Source: Thiomicrorhabdus sp. 6S3-12 (GTDB taxonomy: Bacteria; Pseudomonadota; Gammaproteobacteria; Thiomicrospirales; Thiomicrospiraceae). From it: a stretch of 64,000 bases of DNA. Below, one piece after another: positions 7,457 to 47,268 of this stretch (the first letter of the stretch is position 1; every line of letters starts with the position of its first letter). The notes below the pieces were generated by a model. It was not told the origin of the DNA. It ran no database searches and saw nothing but the letters and a program-made list of their open reading frames with translations. The translations under genes and the position numbers were made by a program. The stretch lies in assembly GCF_017571475.1 (NCBI RefSeq), contig NZ_JAGETW010000001.1:186001-250000 (forward strand). The letters run 5' to 3'.

Positions 7457-8203
7457 ATGTATCAACAAAAAGATTTTGTACTCAGTGTTGAAGGCTTAAC
7501 GGTTTCATTTGATGGATTCAAAGCGGTGAACAACGTTTCCTTCTACATCGAAGAACAGGAAATTCGCGTCATTATCGGCCCTAACGGTGCCGGTAAGACC
7601 ACCATTCTGGATCTTATCTGCGGAAAAACCAAATCAACAGAAGGATCCATTAAATTTAAAGGTAAAGAACTTACCAAACTGCGTGAGCACGAAATTGTTC
7701 ACGCTGGTGTCGGCCGTAAATTTCAGAACCCGTCAATCTATGAAGATTTAACGGTATTTGAAAACCTGGAGCTTTCTTACCCTAAGGGCAAGAAAGTATG
7801 GGGTGCTCTAACCTTCACTCGAGACCAAGCGGTTATCGACAAGGTAAATGAGATTGCCGAAATGATTTTCTTGAAAGAAATGCTGCAAAGCAAAGCCAGC
7901 CTACTGAGCCACGGCCAGAAGCAGTGGCTGGAAATCGGCATGCTATTGATTCAAGACCCTGAACTTCTAATGCTGGATGAGCCTGTCGCCGGTATGTCGG
8001 TTTCGGAAAGAAAGCAAACCGCGGCACTACTGCAAAAAATTACCCAAGACCGTTCAGTACTTGTTATCGAACATGACATGCACTTCGTTGAAGAGATTGC
8101 TGACCGTGTAACTGTAATGCACCAAGGTCAAGTACTTTCGGAAGGTTCAATGGATCACGTTCAGTCGGATCCGAAAGTTATCGAAGTCTACCTAGGTCAT
8201 TAA
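7457..8203 (+). CDS. urtD: Urea ABC transporter ATP-binding protein UrtD
   Basis: This is one of two ATPases driving urea import (LivG type). It has Walker A GPNGAGKTT, the signature region LLSHGQKQWLEIGMLL (the C loop reads LSHGQ, as is usual for UrtD) and Walker B LLMLDEPVAGMS. A TTG at 7445 would add four residues, but it overlaps the ribosome site GGAGAAG (7447-7453). The ATG at 7457 is therefore the likely start, giving 248 residues. It is followed after 15 bases by urtE. Confidence 0.94.
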   Translation: MYQQKDFVLSVEGLTVSFDGFKAVNNVSFYIEEQEIRVIIGPNGAGKTTILDLICGKTKSTEGSIKFKGKELTKLREHEIVHAGVGRKFQNPSIYEDLTVFENLELSYPKGKKVWGALTFTRDQAVIDKVNEIAEMIFLKEMLQSKASLLSHGQKQWLEIGMLLIQDPELLMLDEPVAGMSVSERKQTAALLQKITQDRSVLVIEHDMHFVEEIADRVTVMHQGQVLSEGSMDHVQSDPKVIEVYLGH

Positions 8204-8218
8204 GAGGAGATCTACAAC

Positions 8219-8908
8219 ATGTTAGAAATTAAAGACTTACATGTCGCCTACGGAGAGAGTGAGGTCGTAAAAGGGTTAAATCTTTCTCTTAAAGAAAACG
8301 AAATCATCGCGGTACTGGGACGAAACGGGATGGGTAAAACCACACTCATGAAATCCCTGATCGGCATGATCCCAACCAAAAGCGGTTCAGTTCAACTGAA
8401 AGGAAAAGAGCTCAGCGGAATGAAAAGTCATGACCGCGTTGCCGCTGGCGTCGGCTTCGTTCCTCAGGGGCGAATGATTTTCTCGACCATGACCGTTGAG
8501 GAAAACATTGAAACCGGCCTGACGACGACTAAAGAATCCAAAGTACCGGAAGAACTGTACAACATCTTCCCGATCCTGCGCGATTTCCGCAAACGTCGCG
8601 GCGGAAACCTATCCGGTGGTCAACAGCAGCAGCTGGCGATTGCCCGCGCGCTGGCCAGTAACCCGGACGTACTGCTTCTGGATGAACCAACAGAGGGTAT
8701 TCAGCCATCGATCATCAAAGAGATGGCGCACACCCTGAAAGAGATTCGCGATTCGCACGGACTATCCATCATCGTTTCTGAGCAGGTTTTGAGCTTTGCA
8801 CTCGATGTTGCAGACCGAATCATCGTCATCGAAAAAGGCAAAATCATTCACGATCAGCCTAAAGACGAAGTCGATGAAGAACAGATAGCGAAATTCCTGT
8901 CGGTTTAA
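8219..8908 (+). CDS. urtE: Urea ABC transporter ATP-binding protein UrtE
   Basis: This is the second ATPase (LivF type), 229 residues. It has Walker A GRNGMGKTT, signature LSGGQQQQLAIARAL and Walker B LLLDEPTEGIQPS; EGIQPS is typical of UrtE. A ribosome site AGAGGAG precedes the ATG. It ends the transporter operon; fmdA follows after 58 bases with no terminator visible, so the amidase genes may be co-transcribed with the transporter. Confidence 0.95.
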   Translation: MLEIKDLHVAYGESEVVKGLNLSLKENEIIAVLGRNGMGKTTLMKSLIGMIPTKSGSVQLKGKELSGMKSHDRVAAGVGFVPQGRMIFSTMTVEENIETGLTTTKESKVPEELYNIFPILRDFRKRRGGNLSGGQQQQLAIARALASNPDVLLLDEPTEGIQPSIIKEMAHTLKEIRDSHGLSIIVSEQVLSFALDVADRIIVIEKGKIIHDQPKDEVDEEQIAKFLSV

Positions 8909-8966
8909 CAACAAACGGAATTCCTCTCAACCACTAACTTCTCACAACCACAACGGAGCTTTTAAA

Positions 8967-10199
8967 ATGGCTGAAACGATAGTTAAAATCGACCTTTCAA
9001 AGTCTGCCTACGACAATGAACAGGTTCATAACCGCTGGCACCCGGACATCCCGATGGCTGCAACCGTCAAACCTGGCGATGATTTCATTCTTGAATGTTA
9101 TGACTGGACAGGTGGACAGATCAAAAACGACGACGACGCATCGGATATCCGTGACGTTGACCTGTCTCAGGTTCACTTCCTCTCCGGTCCGGTCGGTGTT
9201 GAAGGCGCACAGCCTGGTGACCTTCTTGAAGTCGATATCCTTGATATCGGTACTTTCGAAGAAAGCAACTGGGGGTTCAACGGACTTTTCTCGCTTAACA
9301 ACGGTGGCGGTTTCTTGACCGATCACTATCCTGATGCTCAGAAAACCATTTGGGATTTCAACGGCATCATGACCAAATCCCGTCACATTCCAGGCGTTGA
9401 ATTTGCAGGTCTGCTGCACCCGGGTCTAATCGGATGCCTTCCATCAAAAGAGATGCTTAAAGAATGGAACGAGCGTGAAAAAGCGCTTTACGATACTGAG
9501 CCTGATCGTGTTCCTGCACTGGCTACCCTTCCGTACGCTGAAACCGCACACATGGGGCAGATGAAACCGGAAGCAGCGAAAGAAGCGGCTAAAGAAGGTG
9601 CACGTACCGTACCGCCACGTGAGCACGGCGGTAACTGTGACATCAAAGATTTGACCAAAGGTTCAAAAATCTACTTCCCTGTATACGTAGATGGTGCCGG
9701 CCTATCCGTTGGTGACCTTCACTTCAGCCAGGGTGACGGCGAAATCACCTTCTGTGGTGCGATTGAAATGGCCGGTTGGATTCACCTGCGCGTCAATCTG
9801 ATTAAAGACGGTATGAGCAAATATGCCATCAAGAACCCAATCTTCAAGCCAAGCCCGCTAACGCCTCGTTACGACGACTACGTTGTCTTCGAAGGTATCT
9901 CGGTTGACGAAGAAGGTAAACAGCACTATCTGGATGTTAACGTCGCATACAAACAGGCGTGTTTGAATGCCATCGAGTATATGAAGAAATTCGGTTATAC
10001 CGGTGAACAGGTTTACTCGCTACTGGGTACAGTTCCGACTCAAGCGCATATCAGCGGTATCGTTGATATTCCAAACGCCAGTGCGACGCTTTGGATGCCT
10101 ACCGGAGTATACGACTTTGATATCAACCCTAACGCCGAAGGACCGACTAAACAAGTTGATGAAAGCGTAACGGTTCCAATCGCTCCAGACGAGAAATAA
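8967..10199 (+). CDS. fmdA: Formamidase, FmdA/AmdA acetamidase family
   Basis: FmdA hydrolyses formamide to formate and ammonia. The 410 residues match the FmdA/AmdA family of Methylophilus methylotrophus throughout, with characteristic stretches such as DWTGGQIKNDD, HFLSGPVGVEGAQPGDLL, REHGGNCDIKDL and GDLHFSQGDGE. It is cytoplasmic, with no signal peptide. In M. methylotrophus fmdA sits with amide transport genes homologous to urt and with a porin gene, a context mirrored here. This family is unrelated to the nitrilase-type amidase encoded at 13299-14342, so the cell carries two amidase types side by side. Confidence 0.93.
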   Translation: MAETIVKIDLSKSAYDNEQVHNRWHPDIPMAATVKPGDDFILECYDWTGGQIKNDDDASDIRDVDLSQVHFLSGPVGVEGAQPGDLLEVDILDIGTFEESNWGFNGLFSLNNGGGFLTDHYPDAQKTIWDFNGIMTKSRHIPGVEFAGLLHPGLIGCLPSKEMLKEWNEREKALYDTEPDRVPALATLPYAETAHMGQMKPEAAKEAAKEGARTVPPREHGGNCDIKDLTKGSKIYFPVYVDGAGLSVGDLHFSQGDGEITFCGAIEMAGWIHLRVNLIKDGMSKYAIKNPIFKPSPLTPRYDDYVVFEGISVDEEGKQHYLDVNVAYKQACLNAIEYMKKFGYTGEQVYSLLGTVPTQAHISGIVDIPNASATLWMPTGVYDFDINPNAEGPTKQVDESVTVPIAPDEK

Positions 10200-41187: not shown

Positions 41188-41208
41188 CTTCCCCCGTCAT
41201 AAATTTTT

Positions 41209-41218
41209 CACCTAGGTG
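41209..41218 (+). promoter_or_regulatory. Palindrome CACCTAGGTG upstream of the kinase/phosphatase cluster
   Basis: This perfect 10-base palindrome lies 37 bases before the first gene of the 41256-47268 operon. It is a candidate operator, though too short to be certain. Confidence 0.3.
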
Positions 41219-41255
41219 TGACATAAGCGTCATTCGTGCTCACTAAACTGGCCGA

Positions 41256-41957
41256 ATGAAACGATGTTATTTAGCTTTTTTACGCCACGCACAGTACGAA
41301 CAGCAGCCGCAGATGCCGAGCGCTCTGCAACCCTACGGATTGACCGAAGAAGGGTTTGCGCAAAGCAGTAAAGCCGCCAAAGCGCTGCAGAAACTGATCA
41401 AGCACCAGAAGTGGCAACTTTACCCAAGCATTTACAGCTCGAATCTGTTGCGCTCCTGGCAGACGGCAACCGAAATCAAACACCAACTCAAACAGTCCTG
41501 TCAGATTGAAACAACCGCCGCTTTGAACGAACGTTCCGTCGGCGCTCTGGCCAATCTGACGCTTGAACAGATTGAAGCGGTGATTGACCAGGATCCGCGG
41601 TTCGCGCCTCTGCCGCCGCACTGGAAAAGCAATTCCGACTTCTGCCTGCCGGTGGACGGCGCCGAATCCTTAATGCAGGCCGGCACCCGTGTCAGCCAAT
41701 TCATTCAGCAGACACTGCTTCAGGTCATGGCCAACAGCGAGTCGAATAATCAGTTGATCGTAATGGTCGGCCATGGTGCAGCCTTTCGACATGCTGCCTA
41801 CAAACTCGGTCTGCTGGAAAAAGCGGAGATCGGTCGTTACTCGATGCACTATGCGCAACCGATGGTTTTCGAATGCCGCCTCAAGGCACACCAACTGGAA
41901 ATCGACCTGCTCGCCGGAAAATGGAAAGTGCGCCAGGAAGAAGAACGTCCGGATTAA
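41256..41957 (+). CDS. Histidine phosphatase family protein
   Basis: The 233-residue protein is of the phosphoglycerate mutase/SixA fold. The catalytic motif reads FLRHAQYEQ (RHA instead of RHG), the second Arg lies in SSNLLRSWQTA and the second His in VMVGHGAAFRH. Members remove phosphate from small molecules or phosphohistidine. It is first of six tightly spaced genes that combine phosphatases with kinases and an ATP-grasp enzyme. No ribosome site is obvious at the ATG. Confidence 0.82.
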   Translation: MKRCYLAFLRHAQYEQQPQMPSALQPYGLTEEGFAQSSKAAKALQKLIKHQKWQLYPSIYSSNLLRSWQTATEIKHQLKQSCQIETTAALNERSVGALANLTLEQIEAVIDQDPRFAPLPPHWKSNSDFCLPVDGAESLMQAGTRVSQFIQQTLLQVMANSESNNQLIVMVGHGAAFRHAAYKLGLLEKAEIGRYSMHYAQPMVFECRLKAHQLEIDLLAGKWKVRQEEERPD

Positions 41958-41989
41958 ACGGATCACAAGATTTTAGTGGAGGACTTCCA

Positions 41990-43210
41990 ATGAATGCCCT
42001 GACAGAGAGTTGGTCGACTACCGGCGAATTCAATCACCCTCACGGCTGGCAGACGCCGCAAAAAGAGATCTACTTTTTCTGCGACCTGCATGCCGATGCC
42101 GACGCCTTGCTTAACTCCCTGAAATTGAGTGGTCTGATCGAACAGCGTTCGACTCATGAAACGCTTTATCTCTCGCCCGGAGCTGAAAACGCACAGATTC
42201 TGATCGGCGGCGACTGCTTTGACAAAGGCCCGAGCAATCTGGCGCTATTCCGCCTGTTGAATAAACTGCGTGCACAGCATCCCGATCTGGTTCTGCTTTC
42301 AGGCAATCACGATCTGAGAGTTTATGCCGGGCTTTTAGCGACCAATCATCTGGACGATCTTCGACAGGCTCACTTTTTCGTGCGTATGGGTCGAAAAACT
42401 GCGGCTTTTTTCGCCGAAATCTTCGAGCAGTATTGCCGGGATGAAAAAATTGCATCCATACCGCAAAGCTTGATCGAAGCTCAACTGATGCCCGATGAAC
42501 AGTGGTTCGAACTTTTTCCGCAGTACGCCTGTAACTTTATGAGCGCTAAGCAGCTCAAGAAAGAGCTCAAACAGATCCGCAAAAAGAAACAGGATTTCAT
42601 CGAGGCGTGGAACTCATACGGCTATGACTGGAACCAGCTGATGATGGCGGTCACTACGGCCAAACAGTTGTTCATCGAACAAGATGGTGAGTTTTTCTGG
42701 TTCTTCCAAAACCTGCAGTTAATGCAGCGTCACGGCAGCTATCTTTTCTGTCATGCCGGAATCGACGACCGGATCGCGCATCGCCTGCTGAAAGAACCGG
42801 TCGAAGACATCAACCAACAGTTCAATCAGGCATTACAGCTAGGCAAGATTTTCGAGATCTACTACAGCGAACTGGGCAATGTCGTGCGCACAAAGTACCG
42901 CAATAAAGACTGGGCCTTTTCCGAACTGGGCGCACAGGCTCTGAAAAACCAGGGAATCTATGCACTGGTTAACGGACACCGAGCGCATCACGACGGTCAG
43001 CAGCTGATTATTCGCCAGGGAATTCTGCATTTTGAATGCGATACGGAGCTCAACGCCAACTGCCGTGCCAAAAGCAACCTGCCGGCAAACGGTCAAGCTG
43101 TTACAATATTCTCTTCCGACGGCACGGTTCAGGCGTTAAGCAACGACCTCACGGCGCCGAAACGGTTCCACCCTTCAAGGTTTACAAACCCGAACGTTAG
43201 GTTCAATTAA
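41990..43210 (+). CDS. Calcineurin-like metallophosphatase
   Basis: The 406-residue protein has the dinuclear metal motifs of this superfamily in order: FFCDLHADAD, IGGDCFDKGPSN, LLSGNHDLRVY, FCHAGIDDR and LVNGHRAHHDG. The start at 41990 has GGAGG upstream; the frame extends back to 41873 within the previous gene, but that part has no coding character. An insertion of about 140 residues rich in charged helices lies between the GNHD and CHAG motifs. Substrate unknown. Confidence 0.82.
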   Translation: MNALTESWSTTGEFNHPHGWQTPQKEIYFFCDLHADADALLNSLKLSGLIEQRSTHETLYLSPGAENAQILIGGDCFDKGPSNLALFRLLNKLRAQHPDLVLLSGNHDLRVYAGLLATNHLDDLRQAHFFVRMGRKTAAFFAEIFEQYCRDEKIASIPQSLIEAQLMPDEQWFELFPQYACNFMSAKQLKKELKQIRKKKQDFIEAWNSYGYDWNQLMMAVTTAKQLFIEQDGEFFWFFQNLQLMQRHGSYLFCHAGIDDRIAHRLLKEPVEDINQQFNQALQLGKIFEIYYSELGNVVRTKYRNKDWAFSELGAQALKNQGIYALVNGHRAHHDGQQLIIRQGILHFECDTELNANCRAKSNLPANGQAVTIFSSDGTVQALSNDLTAPKRFHPSRFTNPNVRFN

Positions 43211-43236
43211 TTAGCGGGCAAAAGAGGGAGTTCATA

Positions 43237-43533
43237 ATGGCAAAGAAACCGCAATACTTCGAACATGAATCTCTGCAGGACAAAGAGTCCGTTGTTAATT
43301 ACCTCAAAGCCTTGTCCAAAGGAATCGAAAAGGGTGAAATTCTGCTGTCGGACGATGAAGACACCCAGATCCTCAATACCAGCGAACTTACGCAAATGAG
43401 TATCAAAGCCAGCAAAACCAAAAAAGAACAGAGCCTGCGCATCAAACTCAGCTGGACCAACGATACCGATGACGACGATCCGGATAATGCTCCGCTTTTT
43501 ATAAAAGCGAAAAAGCCCAAGAAAAAGAAATAA
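43237..43533 (+). CDS. Amphi-Trp domain protein
   Basis: The 98-residue protein fits the small amphi-Trp domain family: an N-terminal helix (SVVNYLKALSKGIEKGEILL), acidic turn, then amphipathic strands ending RIKLSWTN with the conserved Trp. A Lys-rich tail (KAKKPKKKK) follows. Ribosome site GAGGGA. The family is known mostly from genomic association with ATP-grasp and HprK-like proteins, both encoded downstream. Confidence 0.78.
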   Translation: MAKKPQYFEHESLQDKESVVNYLKALSKGIEKGEILLSDDEDTQILNTSELTQMSIKASKTKKEQSLRIKLSWTNDTDDDDPDNAPLFIKAKKPKKKK

Positions 43534-43582
43534 GCCACTTGTCACCTGATCTGTCTTGTCAATTTCACGGTACACAACCACT

Positions 43583-45217
43583 ATGAATCATTTTCCCGAG
43601 GTCTATGAAAGTCTGCGCTTTCTATTGATCGATCTGCAAAAACAGCTGCAAGCCATCTACGACGGCATAGCGGAAAATGATCCGAGCCTGTTCCTCAAAA
43701 GCCTCGAGCGCATCGACTATATCGAAAACGCCCATCTCAGCTTACTGAACCGTTCTTATAACAGCAGCCTGCGCCAAGACCGCGAATATCAGGCGCAACT
43801 TCAGGGCTTTGAACATATTTCCTACAGCCTGCATCACCTTTCCTCGCAACTCGAAGCCTTATGCTTTCAGCTGGAACAGTGTAAATCGCTGAAGCTGTTG
43901 CAGAAAAAGCGCATCTTCGCCGCGCTTGAAGACCTCAATAAGGGATTGTTGCTGATTGAACCGGCCGTCGAAAGCGAAGAGCTGACCCTGTCGATCGACA
44001 TCTGTCAGCTTCAGGGGCGGATTGAAAAAAGCTGTCGCCAGCAACTGGACCGTTATCAGGACAACCTGAAAACCGGACAGTACAGTCAGGCGCTGATGCA
44101 GAGCAGTTTTATCGTCCGTGACATCCTGAATATGGCCGATGCCCTGCTCAAAGTCGGAGAAGGCATTATCTCCGGGAAACTCGGCCAGTTCATTCAGATC
44201 GATCGCTATCAGACGCTGGAAGCCAGCTTGTCTGAGCTGGATTACGATCTGACCGAGCAGAGCATCAATATCCACTCCATGGGCGAAACCAAATCCGGCT
44301 GCACGATTTCCGGCGTCACTTCGGCCAGCGAAGCGCAGGAAGAAATTCTGGCAATCTTTAAACAGGGACGTAAAGACAAGCTGCTGGAAGAAAAAATCGG
44401 CATCGAAAGCTGGCACGAGAAATTCCCCGGCATTGCTCCGGAGGTGTATTCCTATCAGAAACAGGGCGATAAAGCCGCCCTGCTGTTCGAATACCTGACC
44501 GGGAAGACCTTCGACAAGCTGCTACTGGAAGATCGTCAGGCACTGCAATCAGGACTGAACCGACTGTTTGCCACCCTTAGCGAAATCTGGCAAGCCACCG
44601 AAAAAAGCAAACCGATCAGCGCTAACTTTATGCGACAGCTGCAGAAACGCCTGAAAAGCGTCTACGCGGTACACCCTGAATTCAACCTTAAAAGCAAGGG
44701 GCTGCGCATCGGCGATGCTCAGCAAGCCTCATTGGAACAGCTGATTAAGCAGGCCGCCAAACTGGAAGAGAAGTTTGAGGTGGCCAATGCTGTCTATATC
44801 CACGGCGACTTCAACGTCGACAACATCCTTTACGATGCCGATAAGGACGATATCAGTTTTATCGACCTGCATCGCTCCGAATACCTCGACTATACGCAGG
44901 ATCTCTCGGTACTGATGGTCTCTTTCTACCGTCTGACCAACTATGATCCGAAAGTACGTCAGCGCATCCGTCTGACCATCGAAGCTATTTACGACTTCGG
45001 TGCCGACTATGCCGAACAGAATAACGATAATGACTATGCAAAACGCATGGCGCTCGGGTTGGCGCGGTCTTTTATCAGCTCGACCCGTTTCGTGCTCGAT
45101 AAGGAACACGCCAAATCCATGCTCTTTAAGGGGCGTTACCTCTTGGAACAACTGATAAATCTTCCGAAAAAAGAACTGCCCAACTATCAGCTACCAAAGG
45201 AGCTCTTCCGTGACTAA
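43583..45217 (+). CDS. PhoU-like/aminoglycoside-phosphotransferase-fold fusion protein
   Basis: The 544-residue protein joins a helical, PhoU-like N-terminal part (about 1-220) to a kinase-fold part of the APH/choline kinase type. In the latter, IHGDFNVDNILYD (H407, Brenner motif HGDxxxxN) and ISFIDLHRSEYLDYTQDLSVL supply catalytic and metal residues. An ATG at 43583 is preferred over TTG at 43556. The substrate is unknown. The stop codon overlaps the next gene by 8 bases. Confidence 0.72.
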   Translation: MNHFPEVYESLRFLLIDLQKQLQAIYDGIAENDPSLFLKSLERIDYIENAHLSLLNRSYNSSLRQDREYQAQLQGFEHISYSLHHLSSQLEALCFQLEQCKSLKLLQKKRIFAALEDLNKGLLLIEPAVESEELTLSIDICQLQGRIEKSCRQQLDRYQDNLKTGQYSQALMQSSFIVRDILNMADALLKVGEGIISGKLGQFIQIDRYQTLEASLSELDYDLTEQSINIHSMGETKSGCTISGVTSASEAQEEILAIFKQGRKDKLLEEKIGIESWHEKFPGIAPEVYSYQKQGDKAALLFEYLTGKTFDKLLLEDRQALQSGLNRLFATLSEIWQATEKSKPISANFMRQLQKRLKSVYAVHPEFNLKSKGLRIGDAQQASLEQLIKQAAKLEEKFEVANAVYIHGDFNVDNILYDADKDDISFIDLHRSEYLDYTQDLSVLMVSFYRLTNYDPKVRQRIRLTIEAIYDFGADYAEQNNDNDYAKRMALGLARSFISSTRFVLDKEHAKSMLFKGRYLLEQLINLPKKELPNYQLPKELFRD

Positions 45218-46115
45218 TCTGAAAATTGGCGTTGTCGGCATTCCCGGCAAATGGTCAACCGAAGTCCTGGCCGACGAAATCGAAGCGAAAACCGGTTTCC
45301 GAATGGTCATCGATATCGAAAAAGTCGTCGCCGATCTCTCGACGCCGAAAGTCACCTATCAGGGGCAGTGCCTGTGCGAACTCGACGCTATCATTATCAA
45401 AAAGATCTCTCAGACCTACAGCCCAATGGTAATTGACCGTCTGGAAATCCTGCGTTTCGTCGAATCCTGCGGCGTCAAAGTCTATTCCAAACCAAGCGAG
45501 ATTATCCGTCTGGTGGATCGCATGAGCTGCACCATCTCCCTGGCACGGGCAAAAATCCCCATGCCGAAAACCTGTATTACCGAAGATCACGACGCCGCCT
45601 TCAAGACCGTCAAAGAATTCGGCGAAGTAGTGCTCAAGCCGCTATTCTCCACCAAAGCGCGCGGCATGGAAGTGATTAAAGCGGATCAGAAAGACGACTT
45701 AATCCGCAAACAACTGCAGGCGTTCTATCGCACGCATCAGTTTTACTATATTCAACAAAAAATGAATTTACCCGGTCATGACATGGGGCTGGTTTTCCTC
45801 GGCGGAGAACATCAGGGAGCCTACGCCCGGGTCGCCAACGGCGACAGCTGGAACACCACCATTCACTCCGGCGGGAAATATGCCGAAGTGAAACCGTCGC
45901 AGGACATCATCGAGATGGCGCAAAAAGCGCAAGCGCAATTTGACCTCTCCTATACCACGGTCGACATTGCCGAAACCGATCAGGGCCCGGTCTGTTTTGA
46001 AGTTTCCGCATTCGGAGGATTCAAAGGCGCCAAAGAAGGATTGAATCTTAATATGGCGCAGGCCTACACCGATTACGTCATTCAGGATTTACAGAAAAGC
46101 GGTGCCAATGATTAA
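45210..46115 (+). CDS. ATP-grasp enzyme (GAK-system type, RimK-related)
   Basis: The 301-residue protein starts at GTG with AAGGAG upstream and overlaps the previous gene by 8 bases. It has the ATP-grasp layout: MTNLKIGVVGIPGKWSTEVL at the N terminus, LVDRMSCTISLARAKIPMPKT, VVLKPLFSTKARGMEVIK (ATP-binding Lys) and VDIAETDQGPVCFEVSAFGGF near the metal site. RimK-like enzymes ligate amino acids to carboxylates. It best fits the ATP-grasp component of the set named GAK system in family databases. Substrate unknown. Confidence 0.8.
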   Translation: MTNLKIGVVGIPGKWSTEVLADEIEAKTGFRMVIDIEKVVADLSTPKVTYQGQCLCELDAIIIKKISQTYSPMVIDRLEILRFVESCGVKVYSKPSEIIRLVDRMSCTISLARAKIPMPKTCITEDHDAAFKTVKEFGEVVLKPLFSTKARGMEVIKADQKDDLIRKQLQAFYRTHQFYYIQQKMNLPGHDMGLVFLGGEHQGAYARVANGDSWNTTIHSGGKYAEVKPSQDIIEMAQKAQAQFDLSYTTVDIAETDQGPVCFEVSAFGGFKGAKEGLNLNMAQAYTDYVIQDLQKSGAND

Positions 46116-47268
46116 TGCGACCCTGATTTCGGAATTGATTGACCGTCAACCCGCGACCTCTGCATCCAGTCTGGAGCTGCGCCTCAGTGAAGTCAGTTAT
46201 CGGCTGCAAAGCAACAGTGAAGTCCTGTTGCAGGAACTGGCCGACTATTTCGGTAATCAGGCTGTGTGGAGCGACAAGAACACTGATAGCGATAAGACGC
46301 AGACTCGAGAGACGGTATTTATCTACGAATCATCCCTTGCGGACAAACTGATTGCCGCCACCGAATGGCAGGACTGGAAACGCGAAGCGGGTAAAAGCGG
46401 ACGCAAAGATGCGGTTTACGACCTCGATACCGCACACGGCAAACTGCGCCTGCTGTATAAGGTCAAAACCGGGATGCTGTTCCTGCAACCGGCCGAAGCG
46501 AATCCACAGTTCCCTCTTATGGCCTTCGGCCCGGCGGAAAAACATCCTAACCAGATTATCAACTTTATCCTGACTCAGTATCTGAACCGGCATATCCGGA
46601 GTAACTGGCTGCTCGGACATGCCGCCGGATTACAGATTAAACAACAGGGTGTCGCCATCGCCGGACTCTCCGGCGGCGGTAAATCGACTCTGATGCTGCA
46701 CCTACTGGAAGAGGGCGAGCACTTTATCAGCAATGACCGCCTGCTGTTCAAAGCGGATGCATCAGATCGCATGCAGATGCGCGGCATTCCCAAGCAACCG
46801 CGAATCAATCCAGGCACGATTGTTCACAACCCGCGCCTGCATTCACTGATCAGTGAACGGCAACGCTGCGAATTTCTCGCTATGCCGCAGGAAGAGCTGC
46901 GCGCTCTGGAGATGAAATTCGATGCACCGGTGGACCGACTGTATTGGGGAAATTGCTATTTGCAGGAATGTGAACTGGACTGGATAGTAATTCTGAACTG
47001 GCAGGCGAGCAGCGATGAAAGCACTCAAGTGCATCGCACGACTCTGCAGGAATCGCCGCACCTGATCCCGGCACTGGTCAAAAGCCCCGGCCCTTTTTAC
47101 AGCGATGCTTCGGGCAAATTTCTGAAAAACGGTCTGATTCCTGACCCTCTCGACTATCAGCAGGCTTTAGGCAAGGTAGCGGTTTTGGAACTGACGGGGA
47201 AAATCGATTTTACCCAAGCCAAATCGTTAATACTCGACCAACTGAATCATCCGCAAGAAAACGCGTAA
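46108..47268 (+). CDS. HprK-related kinase
   Basis: The 386-residue protein resembles HPr kinase/phosphorylase in its C-terminal half: Walker A GLSGGGKST (186-194), then HFISNDRLLF and the downstream RGIPKQPRINPGT region. The N-terminal half is unlike HprK. No HPr gene is in the window, so the target must be another protein. The ATG at 46108 overlaps the ATP-grasp gene by 8 bases (GTG 46102 is less likely). It is last gene of the operon and convergent with the ABC transporter genes. Confidence 0.8.
   Translation: MINATLISELIDRQPATSASSLELRLSEVSYRLQSNSEVLLQELADYFGNQAVWSDKNTDSDKTQTRETVFIYESSLADKLIAATEWQDWKREAGKSGRKDAVYDLDTAHGKLRLLYKVKTGMLFLQPAEANPQFPLMAFGPAEKHPNQIINFILTQYLNRHIRSNWLLGHAAGLQIKQQGVAIAGLSGGGKSTLMLHLLEEGEHFISNDRLLFKADASDRMQMRGIPKQPRINPGTIVHNPRLHSLISERQRCEFLAMPQEELRALEMKFDAPVDRLYWGNCYLQECELDWIVILNWQASSDESTQVHRTTLQESPHLIPALVKSPGPFYSDASGKFLKNGLIPDPLDYQQALGKVAVLELTGKIDFTQAKSLILDQLNHPQENA

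Follow-up and report, generated by a model that had tools for sequence, protein, structure and literature searches.

The six-gene operon and its proteins

The window analysed here is a stretch of 64,000 nucleotides from Thiomicrorhabdus sp. 6S3-12, and it features six open reading frames (ORFs), all on the plus strand at positions 41256–47268, which, judged by their sequences, are a single operon of the GAK type. The operon encodes, in order, a branch 1 histidine phosphatase (A, 41256–41957), a PPP-like metallophosphoesterase (B, 41990–43210), a 98-residue amphi-Trp domain protein (C, 43237–43533), a fusion of a PhoU domain to a kinase with the fold of aminoglycoside phosphotransferase (APH) (D, 43583–45217), a GAK ATP-grasp protein (E, 45210–46115), and an HprK-related kinase B (F, 46108–47268). 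The likely start codon is ATG in every gene except E, which begins with GTG. With ATG starts assumed for B, D, and F, the genes from A to F are spaced by gaps of 32, 26, and 49 nt and then by two overlaps of 8 nt each. An earlier note on this DNA had described six genes with this spacing on one strand and had assigned them to the GAK type; the first point is borne out by the ORFs and the choice of starts, and the second by an NCBIfam search in which TIGR04354 (C), TIGR04356 (E), and TIGR04355 (F) all scored above their cut-offs. NCBI catalogues these families as GAK, without a function. The literature searched contained no mention of them, and, as the note had stated, no established function of GAK was found there. 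The host, a sulfur oxidiser, is close to Thiomicrorhabdus, with an ATP-grasp protein 84% identical to that of T. marina.

The ATP-grasp protein E scores 456.9 bits against TIGR04356 (grasp_GAK, cut-off 300) and is predicted to adopt a carboxylate-amine ligase fold of the RimK/MptN type. The next-best models are MptN, the tetrahydromethanopterin:glutamate ligase (162 vs. a cut-off of 350 bits), and the RimK family (112 vs. 143 bits), and RimK structures were matched with an E-value of 5e-20. E is homologous to the RimK, MptN, and LysX ligases (4iwx, 5zct, 1uc8) over the whole ATP-grasp length; however, it forms its own family, features Ser in place of Asn in the metal-binding ExN motif (FEVSAFGG), and carries a conserved KKIxxxYSP motif in its N-domain.

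The kinase F scores 285.3 bits against TIGR04355 (HprK_rel_B, cut-off 200) and matches structures of HPr kinase/phosphorylase (HprK/P) with an E-value of 2e-4, the region of the His, the P-loop, and the Asp being aligned. F shares with HprK/P (1jb1, 2qmh) a P-loop kinase core, a conserved His, and an Asp-Arg pair, which form invariant columns of the F alignment; in F the Walker A sequence reads GLSGGGKST and the Asp-Arg pair lies in SNDR. In contrast, its score against the HprK model itself is 26.8 bits (cut-off 240), the N-terminal half is different, and the genome lacks the HPr substrate. The absence of HPr, which the earlier note had proposed, holds for the whole genome, with 0 matches to a model that was positive in 7 of 14 controls, and no HPr was found in three other Thiomicrospirales searched. 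Because HPr is absent, F must act on something else. Carbon-catabolite control of the HPr type through an HprK homologue would fit the distant kinship and conserved residues of F, but it is rejected for this genome and is exceedingly improbable as an account of the operon.

The C-terminal half of D matches the APH Pfam model with 42.3 bits (cut-off 23.2), and for the N-terminal half of the single window sequence no PhoU match was obtained among Pfam or NCBIfam models. A profile built from 39 relatives and searched against PDB sequences matched residues 6–224 to the PhoU structure 4q25 with an E-value of 3.3e-16 and also matched four further PhoU structures, five in all, along most of their length; the C-terminal half of the profile matched APH(3') structures. 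The AlphaFold2 (AF2) model of D, with a predicted local distance difference test (pLDDT) score of 91, is entirely helical in its N-terminal part and resembles APH in its C-terminal part, and its best Foldseek matches are to APH(3')-Ia. The HGDxNxxN motif of the kinase, a second Asp, a G-loop-like SG, and one Lys are invariant in the 39 sequences. Around 220 N-terminal residues align over nearly the whole length of PhoU (4q25, 1t72, 1sum), but unlike PhoU, D is fused to a kinase, is missed by PhoU models, and is not encoded with the pst genes in this genome, where a separate putative PhoU-like ORF adjoins them (L196). D shares the C-terminal kinase fold and catalytic motif of APH(3') and differs from it in the fusion to PhoU, in scoring below every resistance cut-off, and in an almost invariant ARSFxTSTRF stretch towards the C-terminal end of the fusions (residues ~493–502), which was not traced in APH. 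A role for D as an aminoglycoside resistance kinase was rejected, as the best resistance model gave 42.6 bits against a cut-off of 205 and all models were far below cut-off. NCBIfam holds no model for the PhoU-APH fusion.

The phosphatase A matches His_Phos_1 (PF00300) with 72 bits (cut-off 21.7) and features RHA and GHG motifs, of which the former is kept as RHx in 30 of 33 relatives. B scores 24.5 bits against Metallophos (PF00149, cut-off 21.5), a value obtained on the longer ORF from 41873, and carries DLHAD, GDCFDKG, GNHD, and HAG motifs, with GNHD present in 35 of 35 relatives. Despite its low score, B is a genuine metallophosphoesterase with motifs of the PPP type, and it also has a weak ApaH-like match.

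The amphi-Trp protein C scores 63.8 bits against TIGR04354 (cut-off 31), and its AF2 model (pLDDT 85) features a helix and four strands. A fold search of this model against the PDB gave no match better than an E-value of 0.87, sequence matches to cullin (E-value 0.035) were judged not credible, and no match was found in the phage collection searched. Alignment of the GAK-linked amphi-Trp proteins revealed a common FxHESLQD motif near the N-terminus, in which the Ser position is occupied by Ser in 51 of 54 sequences, by Ala in 2, and by Cys in 1. The amphi-Trp proteins away from GAK that were read in L228, L229, and L231 do not have this motif. One amphi-Trp gene without GAK (L226, 2197–3081) adjoins a Ppx/GppA phosphatase gene, and those of L228 and L231 come after an apparent gpsA.

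Conservation and composition of the module

GAK loci were gathered from GTDB genomes and their surroundings were read to 20 kb; the gene counts given here refer to the 48 fully covered loci, which span several proteobacterial families and the Desulfobacterota. C, D, and E are each present in 47 of these loci and F is present in 46, whereas the phosphatases are found in 25 (A) and 28 (B). D-E-F is an invariant block in which the 8-nt D/E overlap is often kept, and the catalytic residues of the kinases, the ligase, and the phosphatases are conserved across relatives. The order is A-B-C-D-E-F or a reduced form of it in Thiomicrospirales, D-E-F-A-B-C in other gammaproteobacterial loci and on three Rhodobacterales plasmids that were independently annotated by NCBI, and PHP-like-C-D-E-F-CofD-C2 in Desulfobacterota. 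Since the arrangement recurs across phyla and on the plasmids, it is not a product of chance, and its presence in 47 of the 48 loci makes the PhoU-APH fusion a core subunit. The tabulation of neighbours that the earlier note called for shows the module recurring elsewhere. Its suggestion that the fusion and the phosphatases extend the known core stands for the fusion; the phosphatases add to the annotated core as well, but they are not universal. In L091 (G449; 7882–9515) and L159 (4291–5982), D lies in pieces, together with E in L091, a state that suggests either decay or a mistake in sequencing. Evolutionary distances correlate between the families (0.58–0.91), but these values are confounded by species relationships and were not used.

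In Desulfobacterota, the GAK operon begins with a gene for a protein family of ~390 residues (L010, 6843–8018, and relatives) with the motifs HWHPE, TQHN, PHPEQFWP, and MGDDTH. This family has no sequence match in Pfam, NCBIfam, or the PDB, and the label PHP-like is our own reading of its HxH, H, and DxH motifs. A or B and the PHP-like protein never occur in one locus, which is consistent with interchangeable phosphoesterases. By this distribution of sequences, A and B are lineage-specific, and the PHP-like protein takes their place in Desulfobacterota.

The GAK system as catalogued comprises TIGR04354, TIGR04355, TIGR04356, TIGR04357 (CofD_rel_GAK), and TIGR04358 (XXXCH domain). The present operon resembles it in having the three core models above cut-off and their genes adjacent. 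It differs in that the genome has no CofD_rel_GAK protein, that the operon has no XXXCH gene, and that it adds the unmodelled PhoU-kinase fusion as a core component, two phosphatases, and a link to phosphate starvation. The CofD-like protein is an accessory of 13 of the 48 loci; TIGR04357 had matches in 5 of 11 genomes and 0 in this genome and four other Thiomicrospirales. The recurrence of this protein beside GAK, together with tetrahydromethanopterin:glutamate ligase as the best non-GAK model for E (162 bits), would suit a module that builds a phosphate-sparing or storage product, such as a glutamylated polymer or cofactor, with the CofD-like protein and the ATP-grasp enzyme acting as in the tailing of F420 and methanopterin. 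This reading is improbable, as the CofD-like protein is missing from this genome and its four relatives, and as it does not account for an operon that combines two kinases with two phosphatases.

Additional genes accompany some loci. A fusion of a histidine phosphatase of the SixA type with a NUDIX domain lies inside GAK operons (L004, 12187–13161; L095–L099) and is counted in 4 of the 48 fully covered loci, a gene for a CHAD-domain protein and one for a ParA-like ATPase lie near the operon in L004 (5851–8138), L006, L097, and L099, and a free NUDIX protein accompanies GAK in Qingshengfaniella.

The Pho box and the pst/pho neighbourhood

The regions upstream of GAK loci feature CTGTCAT-like repeats spaced by 11 bp. 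In the window, a Pho-box-like array, CCGTCATAAATTTTTCACCTAGGTGTGACATAAGCGTCATTC, lies on the plus strand at 41194–41235 and consists of four 7-mers with an 11-bp period, identified by motif search, matrix score, and comparison with shuffled sequence. In more than 20 loci, that of the window among them, the score against the E. coli consensus is higher than in any of 60 dinucleotide shuffles; the site of the window was reached by 0 of 60 shuffles. Unseeded expectation maximization (EM) on 23 Thiomicrospirales upstream regions returned the motif tGTCAtAAAaCTGTCATntannnaTcAta with a log-likelihood ratio (LLR) of 236, compared with 77–92 for shuffled sets. This motif contains the PhoB box tGTCAtAAAaCTGTCAT at a near-constant distance to the start, with convincing sites in 22 of the 23 regions, mostly 61–62 nt upstream of the start. 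Its first part matches the published PhoB consensus (PMC3465305) and equals the E. coli pstS box CTGTCATAAAACTGTCAT.

A matrix derived from the GAK promoters of 20 other genomes was used to scan 366 upstream regions in ~0.45 Mb of the genome of the window. The GAK site of the window scored 24.6 bits and ranked first, and the upstream regions of DUF3419/btaA, pstC, pstS, and a family-4 glycosyltransferase ranked second, fourth, sixth, and eighth. Three of the scanned pieces, those around pst, btaA, and the glycosyltransferase gene, had been included on account of boxes seen in a pattern count; the ranking hence demonstrates a motif shared among these promoters and not a random draw. We take the DUF3419 gene (Pfam) to be BtaA of betaine-lipid synthesis. 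Phosphate-deficiency clusters with Pho boxes in marine bacteria include betaine-lipid and glycosyltransferase genes (PMC4796936). The matrix also found the pstS promoters of G403, G430, and G186 with 20–23 bits, compared with shuffle maxima of 5.6–12.4. Elsewhere among the regions scanned from the genome of the window, the third-best Pho-box score belongs to a small lipoprotein-like ORF with no family match (L206, 5304–5954; C11, ~260.3–261.0 kb), and a Pho-box-like site of 11.1 bits lies upstream of the type II secretion gene gspC (L207, 9665–10510; C11, ~284.7–285.5 kb).

A likely −10 element, TAAACT, lies on the plus strand at 41244–41249, 6 nt upstream of the ATG of gene A, and corresponds to a TAnnnT hexamer that most relatives with an A-first operon and an annotated ATG start carry 12–13 nt upstream of that codon. 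No Shine-Dalgarno sequence was found in 19 of 19 A-first operons. With this −10-like hexamer and a Pho box replacing the −35 element, transcription would begin about the start codon of A, and the PhoB-driven transcript of this gene is likely leaderless.

The operon is accompanied by the Pho box, though a weaker one, at other genomic places as well (L076, L081, L106, L111), and in Desulfobacterota it lies close to phosphate genes. The order in L010 (Desulfobacteraceae) is phoR-phoB, pstS-pstC-pstA, and then GAK; in L156 GAK adjoins phoB, pstSCAB, phoU, and phoH2; phoU, phoR, and phoH2 are near GAK in L160; and phoH2 is near it in L157 and L008. The pstS matches of all grades number 28 in 15 genomes, i.e., one or a few Pst clusters per genome, which makes chance an unlikely cause of this recurrent proximity within 10 kb, by estimate rather than by computation. 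In the genome of the window the pst/pho genes are not neighbours of GAK, and the operon is flanked by nrdB upstream and by a heme-type ABC transporter gene on the opposite strand downstream.

Several observations count against placing GAK under phosphate control. A loose Pho-box pattern with 3 mismatches occurs 133/133 times genome-wide and 118/111 times in the backwards control; as this count is barely above control and too noisy on its own, a lone match means little, and it is the conservation of the box that carries the argument. The matrix from 20 genomes took the E. coli box as its initial seed, although the unseeded search is in agreement with it. In several loci outside the Thiomicrospirales (L004, L006, L095–L101) and in 2 of the 3 Rhodobacterales plasmids, the box is weak or not seen. 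The Desulfobacterota upstream regions feature TTAAC/TTCAC/GTAAC repeats with an 11-bp period, which also occur before some pstS genes there, and the LLR of this motif (110 vs. 69–81) is suggestive only. On balance, the conserved box and the pst/pho neighbours argue that the GAK operon is very probably a phosphate-starvation module of the Pho regulon, a link that goes beyond the earlier note.

The same evidence bears on the view of the locus as an anti-phage defence or toxin-antitoxin island. A scattered occurrence (13 of 399 sampled Pseudomonadota and 32 of 63 in the order) and the presence on plasmids would suit such an island. In contrast, control through a Pho box and proximity to pst/pho genes point to a metabolic role, and as no PADLOC match was better than an E-value of 0.0047, a defence system was rejected; this view is very improbable.

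The proposed circuit and its target

Within the Pho regulon, the GAK module is probably a reversible modification circuit. At low phosphate, phospho-PhoB bound to the array at 41194–41235 would turn the operon on. D, which because of its PhoU domain is probably the reader of the phosphate state, would sense that state at the Pst/PhoR complex and gate the attached APH-fold kinase. F would act as an HprK-type kinase on a target other than HPr and E as a RimK-like ligase, and D, E, and F together would most likely modify C, in which the conserved Ser of the HESLQD motif is the best candidate phosphosite. The modification would be undone by the phosphatases A and B, or by the PHP-like phosphoesterase in other lineages. 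HprK/P uses ATP or pyrophosphate and its reaction is reversed by inorganic phosphate, so a phosphate-sensitive kinase would make sense in a Pho operon. We infer the gating by PhoU, the reversibility, and the choice of C. The amphi-Trp protein is favoured as the shared target because the GAK-linked copies carry the Ser motif and none of the non-GAK copies that were read do; taken by itself, this assignment is tentative, with somewhat less than even confidence.

Some findings fit such a circuit poorly. In several loci, such as L072, L076, L079, and L106, neither A nor B nor a PHP-like gene lies close to the core genes, and Ala replaces the candidate Ser in two genomes (L092, L093). Kinases with the APH fold mostly have small molecules as their substrates, and a protein such as C suits D poorly in this respect. 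The last point also favours the main rival to C as the target, in which the module would synthesize and degrade a small molecule or chain that carries phosphate and is similar to polyphosphate, an inositol pyrophosphate, or a dinucleotide. This product would serve as a phosphate reserve or a signal, and C would bind it without being modified. The partners of GAK act on phosphate esters and anhydrides and are consistent with this possibility: the SixA-NUDIX fusion and the CHAD protein of gammaproteobacterial loci, the free NUDIX protein of Qingshengfaniella, the PHP-like and CofD-like proteins of Desulfobacterota, the weakly ApaH-like B, and the Ppx/GppA neighbour of a non-GAK amphi-Trp gene. 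However, E belongs by its RimK/MptN likeness to a family of amino-acid ligases, not metabolite kinases, and the NUDIX and CHAD partners occur in few loci. A small-molecule target is rather unlikely. Still less likely is a broader form of the idea, in which GAK would be a bacterial counterpart of the eukaryotic phosphate-sensing circuit based on inositol pyrophosphates. Under this view, PhoB would induce kinases and the ATP-grasp enzyme together with phosphatases of the histidine, NUDIX, PPP, and PHP types, and this set would write and erase a signal of the phosphate state, which would be read out through the PhoU-kinase fusion and an amphi-Trp effector.

Overall, the module is best explained as a modification circuit gated by phosphate, with the amphi-Trp protein as its probable target, and this explanation is held with moderate confidence. 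The interpretation in the earlier note is in this way partly supported: the GAK type, the wider core, and the lack of HPr stand, and reversible modification of the amphi-Trp protein is the part that we infer.

Three points are new for GAK: its assignment to the Pho regulon, the recognition of the PhoU-kinase fusion among its core subunits, and phosphoesterases that appear to be interchangeable. The placement under phosphate starvation makes GAK testable with one growth condition, one regulator, and one operon, and a PhoU domain fused to a kinase emerges as a core subunit that databases have overlooked. To our knowledge, it is still open how PhoU relays the phosphate status, and a fusion of PhoU with a kinase that occurs in nature gives direct access to the mechanism of PhoU signalling.

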